Assembly: GCF_000380505.1 (NCBI RefSeq)
Contig: NZ_AQYH01000007.1
Coordinates: 310,001-374,000 of the forward strand
DNA: 64,000 nt
DNA from: Kaistia granuli DSM 23481
Lineage (GTDB): Bacteria; Pseudomonadota; Alphaproteobacteria; Rhizobiales; Kaistiaceae
Reading direction: 5' to 3'
The notes beneath the pieces were generated by a model. The model was not told where the DNA came from and made no database searches. It saw only the letters and a program-made list of their open reading frames with translations. This document shows, one piece after another, positions 10,673-13,391 of the stretch. Each line of letters opens with the position of its first letter. Within the stretch, counting starts at the first letter, position 1. The translations under genes were made by a program, and so were the position numbers.

Positions 10673-11479
10673 CTAGGCCTTGTTCTTGACGAGACGTACG
10701 AGCGGCTGGCCGCGGCCATCGAGCAGGACCAGCTTGGCGCCGTCGAGGCGATAGCCCTGCGTCGCCGACAGCGCGTCGAGGAACTTCCGCTCCTGCTCCA
10801 TCTGCGCCGGCACGCAGGCCATCTGCGTCGCGCCGAGCGGGCCGACCTTGAGGGCGCCGTCCTTGACCGTCACCGTGCCGAAATAGCGGTTGCAGCCACC
10901 CGAGCCGGAGATCTTGCCGCCCGCCTCGATCGCCAGCGTCGACTGCACGATGGCGAGCACGCCTTGGCCGCCAATGTCCTCGGCGAGCCACTCCGTGCCC
11001 TGCAACGCCGCCGCCGGCGTCGGAGCCGGGTTCGGGACCGGGGCCGGGCTGGGCGGTGGAGGCGTGGCGCCCGTCCGGGCGGACGCCTGCTGCACCAGGA
11101 TCGTCACCGGTCCCCGCGTCTTCAGCGGTTCGACGGGAATGGCGGTCTGGTTGATGAACAGCAGTTCGGGGCCGCGCTCGATCCGGGCCTGCAATTCGTA
11201 GCGACGGCCCGGGCGGATCTTCGAGGCGCGGTAGGTGAGCTTGAAGGCGAACGGCACCTGTTTGCCGCGCGACCGAATTCGCTGCTGGGCGATGACGTTC
11301 GCCGGCGCATCGGCGCGCGAGACGTCGACCAGCTGGACGGTGATCCTGGCGCGCGGATCGAGGGCGATCCGCTCGCGATAGGTCACCTCGCCGGAAAGCG
11401 TCCGTGCCAGTGCCAGGGTCGACGGCAGGATGATCAGCGCCAGGGCACATAACAGGCGCAGGGGCAGGATGCGGGTCAC
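10673..11479 (-). CDS. YbaY-like plus META domain envelope protein
   Basis: A secreted protein of 268 residues. A signal peptide (about residues 1-26, hydrophobic core LLCALALIILPSTLALA) is followed by a YbaY/type III secretion lipoprotein-like domain (LSGEVTYRERIALDPRARITVQLVDVS, about 28-130), a Pro/Ala-rich linker (about 137-160), and a C-terminal META domain (LQGTEWLAEDIGG through SGGCNRYFGTV and ATQMACVP, about 160-265) like that of heat-shock protein HslJ. The combination suggests an envelope stress or outer-membrane integrity role, but no reaction is known. The start is GTG 11479, with GAGG seven bases upstream; the open frame runs further into the repeat region. Convergent with the FPP synthase gene. 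Confidence 0.75.
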   Translation of the reverse strand: MTRILPLRLLCALALIILPSTLALARTLSGEVTYRERIALDPRARITVQLVDVSRADAPANVIAQQRIRSRGKQVPFAFKLTYRASKIRPGRRYELQARIERGPELLFINQTAIPVEPLKTRGPVTILVQQASARTGATPPPPSPAPVPNPAPTPAAALQGTEWLAEDIGGQGVLAIVQSTLAIEAGGKISGSGGCNRYFGTVTVKDGALKVGPLGATQMACVPAQMEQERKFLDALSATQGYRLDGAKLVLLDGRGQPLVRLVKNKA

Positions 11480-11572
11480 GATCGAACCTCGTCGGGCGAA
11501 AGAAGGGAGAAGAGATCTAAACGCAACCGTAAGGGCAGTAAACGGGGGAGATGGAGAGGCGCCGTCCGAACG

Positions 11573-11635
11573 CCCCCTCCCCAAAACGGCCTTCGCCCGT
11601 TTTGACCCTCCCTCAAGGGGAGGGTTCAAGCGGAG
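11573..11635 (+). repeat. left composite double hairpin of the DUF559 unit
   Basis: This repeat is made of a C-rich head (11573-11582), a hairpin with AAAACGG and CCGTTTT arms (11583-11603), and a second palindrome ACCCTCC-7 bases-GGAGGGT (11605-11625) with the tail TTCAAGCGGAG. The last 28 bases (11608-11635) recur exactly, inverted, at 12049-12076. The other parts also recur in order but with base changes. Confidence 0.85.
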
Positions 11636-11689
11636 CTTGCTGAAGCAATGGAATGGCGCGGAGCTGGACGATGATCTTGGGAGGCCGAG

Positions 11690-12058
11690 ATGAGCCGGCG
11701 CAGCGTAGATCCTCGCCAGCTTTCTTTTGCCCGGACCATGCGCCGGAACATGACGGAAGCGGAGCTCCGGCTCTGGCTACGACTGCGTGCTCGTGGTGCA
11801 GAGGGCCTGAAATTCCGCCGCCAGGTCCCGATCGGCCCCTACATTGTCGACTTTCTCTGTGCCGAGCGACGCCTGGTCATCGAGATTGATGGCAGCCAGC
11901 ATTTTTCGGATGAGGCGATGGCCGCTGATGTCCGACGCACTGCATGGCTCGAAGCGCGAGGTTTCCGGGTCCTGCGCCTGACCAATCTCGAGGTGATGCA
12001 GAATATCGAAGCTGTCTATCAGGTTCATCGCCGAAGCATCGGGACGAACTCCGCTTGA
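11690..12058 (+). CDS. DUF559 domain protein, Vsr-like PD-(D/E)XK nuclease fold
   Basis: A 122-residue DUF559 protein, related to very-short-patch-repair endonucleases. It has the family helix MTEAELRLWLRLRAR, then FRRQVPIGPYIVDFLC (Asp54), and VIEIDGSQH (Glu65, Asp67), which together form a PD-(D/E)XK-type active site; C-terminal VLRLTNLEVMQNIEAV completes the domain. GGGAGG lies five bases before the ATG. No methyltransferase or other restriction partner is near. The gene sits between inverted composite hairpins, and its stop codon lies inside the right repeat (12049-12076), so the last residues NSA are encoded by the repeat. The biochemical role of single DUF559 proteins is unknown; a part in repeat mobility or repair is inference. 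Confidence 0.85.
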   Translation: MSRRSVDPRQLSFARTMRRNMTEAELRLWLRLRARGAEGLKFRRQVPIGPYIVDFLCAERRLVIEIDGSQHFSDEAMAADVRRTAWLEARGFRVLRLTNLEVMQNIEAVYQVHRRSIGTNSA

Positions 12059-12109
12059 ACCCTCCCCTTGAGGGAGCGTCGAAAACGCCTTGGCGTTTTC
12101 GGGGAGGGT
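12049..12109 (-). repeat. right composite double hairpin of the DUF559 unit
   Basis: Inverted counterpart of the repeat at 11573-11635. Bases 12049-12076 are the exact reverse complement of 11608-11635. Then follow a perfect 9-bp hairpin with a two-base loop (12081-12100, GAAAACGCC/GGCGTTTTC) and GGGGAGGG (12101-12108), matching the C-rich head of the left copy. It ends five bases before the ispG stop codon. Confidence 0.85.
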
Positions 12110-12113
12110 AGTC

Positions 12114-13391
12114 CTACTCCGCCGCCTCGCCCGCCTTCGAGCCGAGCCCGAAGCGCTTCTCGATGTACTCGCCGACCAGCTTGCGGAAATCGTCGGCGAT
12201 GGCGGGGCCGCGCAGCGTCACCGCCTTCTTGCCGTCGATGAAGACGGGGGCGGCCGGCGTCTCGCCGGTGCCGGGCAGCGAGATGCCGATATCGGCATGC
12301 TTCGATTCGCCGGGGCCGTTGACGATGCAGCCCATCACCGCGACCTTCAGCGCCTCGACGCCCGGATAGCGCTCACGCCAGATCGGCATCGAGGTGCGGA
12401 TATCCTCCTGGATCCGGCTTGCCAGTTCCTGGAACACAGTCGAGGTCGTGCGGCCGCAGCCGGGGCAGGCGGCGACGATCGGCAGGAAGGCGCGGAACCC
12501 CATGGTCTGCAGCAGTTCCTGCGCCACCTGCACCTCGCGGGTGCGGTCGCCGTTCGGCTCCGGCGTCAGCGAGACGCGGATGGTGTCGCCGATGCCCTCC
12601 TGCAGCAGGATGCCCATGGCGGCGGACGAAGCGACGATGCCCTTGGTGCCCATGCCGGCCTCGGTGAGGCCGAGATGCAGGCAATGGTCGGAACGGCGGG
12701 CGAGATCGCGATAGACGGCGATCAGATCCTGCACGTTCGACACCTTGGCCGATAGGATGATTTTGTCGCGAGACAGGCCGATCGACTCGGCAAGGTTCGC
12801 CGAGAGGATGGCCGACTGGCAGATCGCCTCGCGCATCACGGCGGCGGCCGAGATCGGCGCAGCGGAAGCCGCGTTCTCGTCCATCAGCCGGGTCAGCAGG
12901 TCCTGGTCGAGCGAGCCCCAGTTGACGCCGATGCGGACCGGCTTGTCGTATTGGATCGCGAGCTCGATCAGGGTGGCGAACTGGCGGTCGCGCTTTTCGC
13001 CGAAGCCGACATTGCCGGGATTGATGCGGTATTTGTCGAGCGCCTCGGCGCAGGCCGGGTGATCGGTCAGGAGCTTGTGGCCGATATAGTGGAAGTCGCC
13101 GATCAGCGGCACGTCGATGCGGCGCGCGAGCAGCTTTTCCTTGATGAACGGCACGGCCGCCGCCGCCTCGTCGCGGTCGACGGTGATCCGCACTAGCTCC
13201 GAGCCGGCGCGGGCGAGCGCCGCGACCTGGGCGACGGTCGCGTCGATGTCGGCCGTGTCGGTATTGGTCATCGATTGCACGACGACCGGCGCGTCGCCGC
13301 CGACGCGGACCTTGCCGACGCGGACGGAGGTGGCGTGGCGGCGCGGCAGCGGACCGGCGAGCGTTTCGGAGGCGGGGGTCATGTCATTCAT
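12114..13391 (-). CDS. ispG: 4-hydroxy-3-methylbut-2-enyl diphosphate synthase (IspG)
   Basis: A 425-residue [4Fe-4S] enzyme of the MEP isoprenoid pathway that reductively dehydrates methylerythritol cyclodiphosphate to HMBPP. The N-terminal TIM-barrel part has [16 protein letters not shown]-like sequence ([18 protein letters not shown]) and the C-terminal ferredoxin-like part has the cluster ligands in CPGCGRT and [10 protein letters not shown]. The family's usual length for the alphaproteobacterial form is 400-430 residues. It is downstream of zur in the same direction, separated by 165 bases of palindromic repeat, so co-transcription is uncertain. The DUF559 unit abuts its 3' end. Confidence 0.95.

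Follow-up and report, generated by a model that had tools for sequence, protein, structure and literature searches.

The window, as we call the whole 64-kb stretch of DNA that was analysed, carries a short block in which a DUF559 gene lies between two inverted copies of a palindromic repeat, and this block is probably a REP/REPIN-type mobile element in its gene-bearing, autonomous-like form, with a DUF559 protein that acts on its own palindrome. The pairing of repeat and enzyme recurs in many bacteria, with both changing together, which makes the DUF559 family a strong candidate for the agent that disseminates a large class of repeats in bacteria. REPs rank with the most frequent repeats of bacterial genomes, and the agent proposed for them so far is the RAYT transposase. 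If our reading is right, a second, unrelated enzyme family is tied to its own repeats, DUF559 gains a likely role, the CTCCC-type repeats of many proteobacteria gain a source, and the origin of REPs could be put to the test with an enzyme of 120 aa and a substrate of 60 bp. A minimal mobile element would then also have evolved convergently, perhaps twice (DUF559 and GIY-YIG).

From left to right, the block (Table 1) consists of a C-rich end, a hairpin, a palindrome, the DUF559 gene, and then the same parts inverted, and it measures 536-537 bp in the three carrier Kaistia genomes measured (G000, G123, and G124). Its inverted arms (11600-11635 and 12049-12084) span 36 nt and are 94% complementary. 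The 17-mer CCCTCCCCTTGAGGGAG, allowing up to three mismatches, has two sites in the window (0.26 expected), which are the two arms; at least two such sites are found in 3/100 shuffles, so the 17-mer core alone is mildly unusual and the long inverted arms are the non-chance part. The stop codon of the gene (TGA, 12056-12058) lies inside the tag (TTGAA) that forms the inner edge of the right repeat. The nearest named relative of the gene, in the same ispG/META gap of Kaistia defluvii, has a frame that extends into the palindrome and a protein ending in ...SEPSP, and the position of the stop codon relative to the repeat therefore varies. On the strength of this relative we assign the genome of the window to Kaistia. 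No intron or intein was seen around the window gene in the sequence and its open reading frames, and there is no methyltransferase among the five neighboring genes checked. An earlier note on this DNA had described a unit with terminal inverted repeats, 28 of whose bases (11608-11635 and 12049-12076) are identical and inverted, a stop codon within the right copy, and a Vsr-like nuclease fold for DUF559; alignment of the arms confirms the 28 bases, and the other points are borne out by the arms, the TGA within the tag, the Pfam match, and the presence of Vsr among the best structural matches. Its remark that no sister copy of the gene is visible holds for the window but not for the genome, where a divergent second DUF559 gene occurs with a different repeat subfamily.

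Table 1. Features of the repeat-DUF559 unit and its flanks (positions in the window), and loci discussed for comparison
Feature	Position	Strand	Details
Whole unit, repeat-DUF559-repeat	11573..12108	.	536 bp
Left repeat (repeat B)	11573..11629	-	Tag TTGAA, palindrome, hairpin, G-rich tail; GGGGAGGGGG as read on -
Terminal palindrome of left repeat	11606..11624	-	CCCTCCCCTTGAGGGAGGG
Second hairpin of left repeat	11582..11604	.	Basis: sequence; covariation in a sister subfamily of another genome
DUF559 gene, single-domain Vsr-fold nuclease (predicted)	11690..12058	+	122 aa; PF04480, E 1.9e-36
Right repeat (repeat B)	12055..12108	+	Tag TTGAA, palindrome 12060-12078, hairpin 12080-12101, G-rich tail
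ispG (GcpE), flanking host gene	12114..13391	-	PF04551, E 2.5e-111
META/YscW-domain gene, flanking host gene	10673..11479	-	Start 11479 set by comparison with relatives
Locus L418, with a DUF559-type repeat between ycjD and fabI	E. coli K-12 MG1655 1348500-1354500
Boxed GIY-YIG loci, examples			L266, L273, L276, L278, L281, L284, L288, L290, L293, L294

Pfam matches of the window protein are limited to DUF559 and MTES_1575 (the latter below the cut-off), and the HUH tyrosine transposase domain (Transposase_17) is absent from them. In two alignments, residues E25, D54, E65, H71, and D80 are invariant and D67 is invariant or nearly so (window numbering). The DUF559 gene is under purifying selection, with a dN/dS of 0.14 between the window and K. 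defluvii genes and of 0.106 between two copies in another genome, G066; the invariant residues together with the low dN/dS point to a working nuclease. An AlphaFold2 model (pLDDT 85) finds its best solved structures in 3hrl (a DUF559 protein called endonuclease-like), in the homing endonuclease I-Bth0305I (3r3p; Foldseek E 7.5e-5, profile search E 5.6e-5), whose motif is named EDxHD, and in Vsr. Unrelated PDB chains at E 0.01-0.09 in the profile search were taken as chance.

We scored boxing as the best ungapped inverted match (+1/-2, threshold 16) between the 400-bp flanks of the DUF559 domain, in three partly overlapping sets of loci: the best-scoring 71 of 109 matches in the same order, 65 loci among the matches listed for the phylum (25 + 40), and the best 80 of 549 relatives in named genomes. 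As an instance of the overlap, L212 and L084 are one contig, judging by length and arm. Inverted repeats box 46/71 of these order loci, 45/65 of the listed phylum loci, and 48/80 of the best named-genome loci, against 1/135, 1/129, and 1/630 same-size control windows from the same loci (3/894 in total); positives in the named set include Chloroflexi, a Deltaproteobacterium, and Legionella anisa, and within Kaistia 17/21 DUF559 genes are boxed. Counting direct repeats as well raises the numbers for the same best-scoring or listed matches to 49/71, 45/65, and 56/80, with direct repeats in 5/135, 4/129, and 6/630 control windows. The repeats are lineage-specific variants of a CTCCC-N-GGGAG palindrome: a CTCCCN2-10GGGAG core occurs within 400 bp of the gene in 66/71, 55/65, and 66/80 of these best-scoring or listed loci, compared with 3/38, 2/39, and 25/455 control windows, and the same pattern read backward in 3, 2, and 1 of the DUF559 loci (order, phylum, and named sets). 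Chance as the cause of boxing is rejected by the same-locus windows and the backward pattern, and the idea that repeats simply cluster at any small accessory gene was rejected on a control of ParE genes from the same order (30 loci fetched, 4 too short), in which 0/26 have inverted repeats, 2/26 direct repeats, and 1/26 the CTCCC core. Where a tail was found, the nearest repeat points it toward the gene in 115/139 upstream and 115/148 downstream cases of the pooled sets; in the window unit both tails face outward from the gene, as in the minority of cases (24/139 and 33/148, respectively).

The repeats are also dispersed through the genome. The 4.77-Mb genome from which the window comes has two DUF559 genes, which carry two different repeat subfamilies: the window gene is boxed by repeat B, and the second gene (locus L002) is boxed by repeat A, formed by TTCACCTCTCCCTGAGGGAGAGGTCG, a hairpin, and CGGGTGAGGGTTTA, with one pair on each side. 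Both share a common plan of tag, palindrome, second hairpin, and G-rich tail, and both frequently occur as inverted pairs. With up to two mismatches, we count 15 copies of repeat B (19-mer core) and about 40 of repeat A in this genome, and 0 copies of either pattern read backward. Pairs of repeat B in G123 lie 63-101 bp apart with tags inward and 124-142 bp apart with tags outward, and many pairs of repeat A in G120 lie at 97-101 bp. RIME of rhizobia and Bru-RS of Brucella, from the same order, are paired palindromes of about 100 bp, like repeat A. Second-hairpin structure was assessed in an alignment of 16 of the 17 G066 loci (L400 was left out): the stem of the terminal palindrome is invariant in all 16 copies, and the second hairpin has seven pairs plus the apex with compensated changes, each with some broken cases, so its structure (as DNA or RNA) is largely kept while its sequence changes.

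Among 14 Kaistia genomes, the five with a DUF559 gene of the clade linked to repeat B (clade support 86/87) have 15-31 copies of that repeat each, whereas of the nine without it two have 34 copies and seven have 0-2 (Fisher p 0.01). Repeat A does not fit its DUF559 clade so cleanly. In that clade (G000, G126, and G130) a repeat A pair lies just downstream of 3/3 genes, with an upstream pair as well in G000 only, G126 and G130 being one-sided; G130 has about 200 copies of repeat A, and G120 and G123 have about 102 and 68 copies without a DUF559 gene of this clade. As a separate observation, G122 has two near-identical DUF559 copies (L307 and L311), one of them next to ispG. Both are embedded in about 943 bp of common sequence, in which a third repeat subfamily, AACCCGCCC...GGGCGGGTC, is also present; the right end of this common block stops at the palindrome of that repeat, an arrangement of nested elements.

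Repeats and enzymes change together at close range. In pairs drawn from different genomes, the repeats have a similarity of about 0.31 when the proteins are 40-55% identical, 0.37 at 55-60%, 0.50 at 60-70%, and 0.74 at 70-85%; the rise above 55% partly reflects shared descent. Paralogs within one genome mostly have different repeats when divergent, with a mean similarity of 0.30 at 35-45% identity (25 pairs) and of 0.35-0.39 at 45-55% (27 pairs), slightly higher than the 0.30-0.32 seen between genomes, and similar enzymes have similar repeats (0.90 at 60-70%, three pairs). Over all 139 loci the correlation of repeat with protein similarity is weak (Spearman 0.05, a value reached by 29/300 permutations), and we rely here on the binned and same-genome values. 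One subfamily, AACCTCCCCN1-6GGGGAGGTCGAA, occurs in 4/120 genomes, with 29 copies in G066, 9 in G058, 3 in G000, and 1 in G053, and DUF559 genes boxed by it are found in G066 and G058; G058 has eight divergent DUF559 copies in one genome.

Genome-wide, the core outnumbers its backward control by a factor of two or more in 23/42 genomes that have a strong DUF559 match and in 5/66 that lack one (G001, G005, G037, G104, and G112). Twelve genomes with weak DUF559 matches only were kept apart in this comparison, and 2/12 (G060 and G118) show the excess. Across all 120 genomes, with those 12 counted as zero and with match classes and gene numbers taken from the search of the order, core excess follows the number of DUF559 genes (Spearman 0.60). 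In three genomes without a DUF559 match the core exceeds the backward control by 77:23 (G001), 132:17 (G005), and 50:18 (G112), which may reflect relics or another agent.

Evidence that the block is copied as a unit comes from G066, where two copies (L051 and L088) share a 499-bp repeat-gene-repeat block, 93.6% identical, in unrelated flanks. Identity starts at TAACCTCCCC and stops seven bases past GGGGAGGTTA, which are the outer palindromes, and this is the one clear pair of duplicated units with sharp ends in unrelated flanks. The four dispersed repeat pairs listed in G066 have the outward orientation of the gene-bearing blocks at a core-to-core spacing of 121-133 bp, compared with 464 bp in the blocks, and by this shared orientation and shorter spacing they look like gene-less versions of the block.

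Presence of the unit also differs between species. In the ispG/META gap, compared in seven of the 14 Kaistia genomes, G000, G123, and G124 have the unit, G128 has a single repeat, and G120, G127, and G130 have nothing. The G123 DUF559 protein is identical to that of K. defluvii, which makes G123 this species or a very close one, and the G123 gap with the unit removed (145 nt) is 71% identical to the G127 gap (146 nt), other pairings giving 0.39-0.69. Two of the four inner forks of an ispG+META tree of Kaistia are open, so the tree fits gain or loss of the unit. In the G128 gap (L063), a repeat pair of the type found at GIY-YIG genes, CATCATGCTGAGG...CCTTCGAGACGG, stands at the place of the left repeat and DUF559.

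Over 400 kb of each genome, 6/11 repeat clusters in G123 and 6/16 in G124 with both flanks mapped differ by at least 40 nt (16 and 26 clusters before flank mapping, some being the same site seen from both sides). At one site, a full pair in G124 corresponds to a lone palindrome, CTTCACCTCTCCCTGAGGGAGAGGTGAAG, in G123, a 101-bp difference that runs from palindrome center to palindrome center; insertion into the palindrome and deletion between palindromes would both fit, and such pair/solo differences between the two genomes could be plain deletions between 20-bp direct repeats. No target-site duplication is visible at the Kaistia ispG/META junctions or at the G066 copies; divergence limits the sensitivity of this comparison. 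The earlier note had likewise seen no such duplication, and had suggested that the unit pairs repeat and nuclease in the manner of REPs and RAYTs; the boxing rates, which place the repeats far more often beside DUF559 than elsewhere, the filled and empty gaps it had proposed comparing (three filled, one with a single repeat, and three empty, of seven), and the duplicated unit in G066 support that suggestion.

We now consider how such an element might work and how it compares with known systems. The DUF559 enzyme would recognize the palindrome of its own repeat, either as duplex or as an extruded hairpin, and would nick or cut there, after which host repair or replication would place copies of the element elsewhere; the scattered short repeats, single or in inverted pairs, would be non-autonomous relatives of the gene-bearing block. 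The likeness to REP-RAYT lies in a gene between two inverted REPs, in dispersed short palindromes, and in inverted pairs at regular spacing. RAYT, however, is an HUH tyrosine transposase, whereas the enzyme here is a nuclease of about 120 aa with a predicted Vsr fold; REPs of RAYTs have a GT(A/G)G head, in place of which the DUF559 repeat combines a CTCCC-N-GGGAG palindrome with a second hairpin and a G-rich tail; and RAYTs are described as always flanked by REPs, a higher rate than the boxing of DUF559. By its sequence, which lacks an HUH transposase, the DUF559 system is not a REPtron, but it is built like one. We found no report linking DUF559 to repeats in the open-access literature, a scope that leaves subscription papers mostly outside.

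DUF559 might instead be a homing-like parasite, in which case the repeats spread by other means and the enzyme homes into REP pairs, cutting the palindrome with the flanking repeats serving as homology. We regard this as unlikely. The DUF559 fold is close to that of I-Bth0305I, the G066 gene occupies the spacer position of a pair (same outward orientation, 121-133 versus 464 bp), and at one site a sister genome has the palindrome only where the other has the full pair, all as homing would have it; but the block copied in G066 takes in the repeats on both sides and has its limits there, variation among the repeats follows the enzyme more closely than the genome, and the correlation of DUF559 number with core excess suggests causation from enzyme to repeat. 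Compared with I-Bth0305I, the window gene differs in being flanked by its own inverted repeats. A role in host repair is improbable for the window gene, though it may apply to domesticated DUF559 members: the protein would be a very-short-patch nuclease like the proposed Caulobacter VsrA, and the repeats bystanders or regulatory hairpins. According to passages of one report, a DUF559 domain is present in VsrA, and the SOS response that appears when the methyltransferase ScmA is missing depends on VsrA (PMC12907096); the window protein resembles Vsr and VsrA in fold and in conserved acidic and His residues. It differs from them in that its gene is boxed by dispersed repeats, and repair leaves unexplained the lineage-specific inverted boxing, the eight G058 copies, the copied block, and the presence and absence between species.

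We give very little credence to the idea that the repeats are MITE-like and moved by an unrelated transposase, with DUF559 a passenger or a gene of insertion-tolerant regions. The core excess in some genomes without a strong DUF559 match would fit it, but ParE genes, which are small and accessory too, are boxed in 0/26 cases, the same-locus control windows are almost free of boxes, and repeats are paired with cognate enzymes. That the repeats act as terminators or insulators for a selfish gene and have multiplied solely as parts of its copies is hardly tenable: strong hairpins at both ends and a stop codon within the repeat are what this would predict, yet the genome of the window holds 15 plus about 40 repeat copies for two DUF559 genes, G066 holds 29 copies for two boxed genes, and scattered copies lacking any trace of a gene are seen. 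The reading we prefer remains a repeat element that carries its own nuclease.

DUF559 genes are not the only ones to be boxed. Single-domain GIY-YIG genes from this order, intended as a negative control (30 loci, 6 too short; the same-locus control windows cover the DUF559 sets), have an inverted box in 10/24 cases and inverted or direct repeats in 16/24, which weakens a role for DUF559 only and favors one for lone nuclease genes. The CTCCC core lies beside 0/24 of them, and their boxes are formed by other repeats, for example CGTCATTCCGGCGAAAGCCGGAATCCAG, CGTCATTCCGGC..., and CCTCATCCTGAGG...CCTCGAAGGATG. Lone nucleases may thus be partners of several REP superfamilies. The CGTC-tagged REPs (Di Nocera 2013) are palindromic like the DUF559 repeats but have a different palindrome and tag, and passages of that work describe them as mostly alphaproteobacterial and apparently without a dedicated transposase (PMC3733652). 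A GTCATYCCSG motif lies beside 4/24 GIY-YIG, 1/71 DUF559, and 2/26 ParE genes, and with 4/24 only, GIY-YIG as the partner of CGTC REPs is so far a lead. A looser CGTC-plus-palindrome pattern proved unspecific (5/24, 20/71, and 2/26, respectively) and was set aside.

The DUF559 gene ycjD of E. coli K-12 has no box (score 8), and a repeat of the DUF559 type, CCCCTCGCCCCTCTGGGGAGAGGGTTAGGGTGAGGGG, which we take to be boxC, lies about 170 bp downstream. A 43-nt query containing CCCCTCGCCCCTCTGGGGAGAGGGTTAGGGTGAGGGG finds matches in 5377/5426 E. coli genomes, with a median of 19 sites per genome (E-value limit 10). It is conceivable, with the chances a little short of even, that large orphan REP superfamilies of bacteria have their dedicated agents in lone single-domain nucleases, DUF559 serving CTCCC-N-GGGAG repeats (including the one beside ycjD) and GIY-YIG the CGTC-type and related ones. 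If true, such minimal mobile elements, about 0.5 kb long, would make up a class that moves by means of a nuclease (Vsr-like or GIY-YIG) without any transposase, and they would be a parallel invention to the REP-RAYT system.

Matches of the repeats to Rfam microRNA families were taken as chance. Both window repeats (11572-11627 and 12057-12109) align over the full 56-nt model of the Whalefall-1 RNA (RF01762), as do six further matches in L002, L051, L090, and L106, all weak, at 19-32 bits against a gathering score of 37. Whalefall-1 is described, in passages of its source, as a noncoding RNA known only from environmental sequences (PMC2864571), and these alignments suggest that an RNA motif of comparable two-hairpin shape is already on record.
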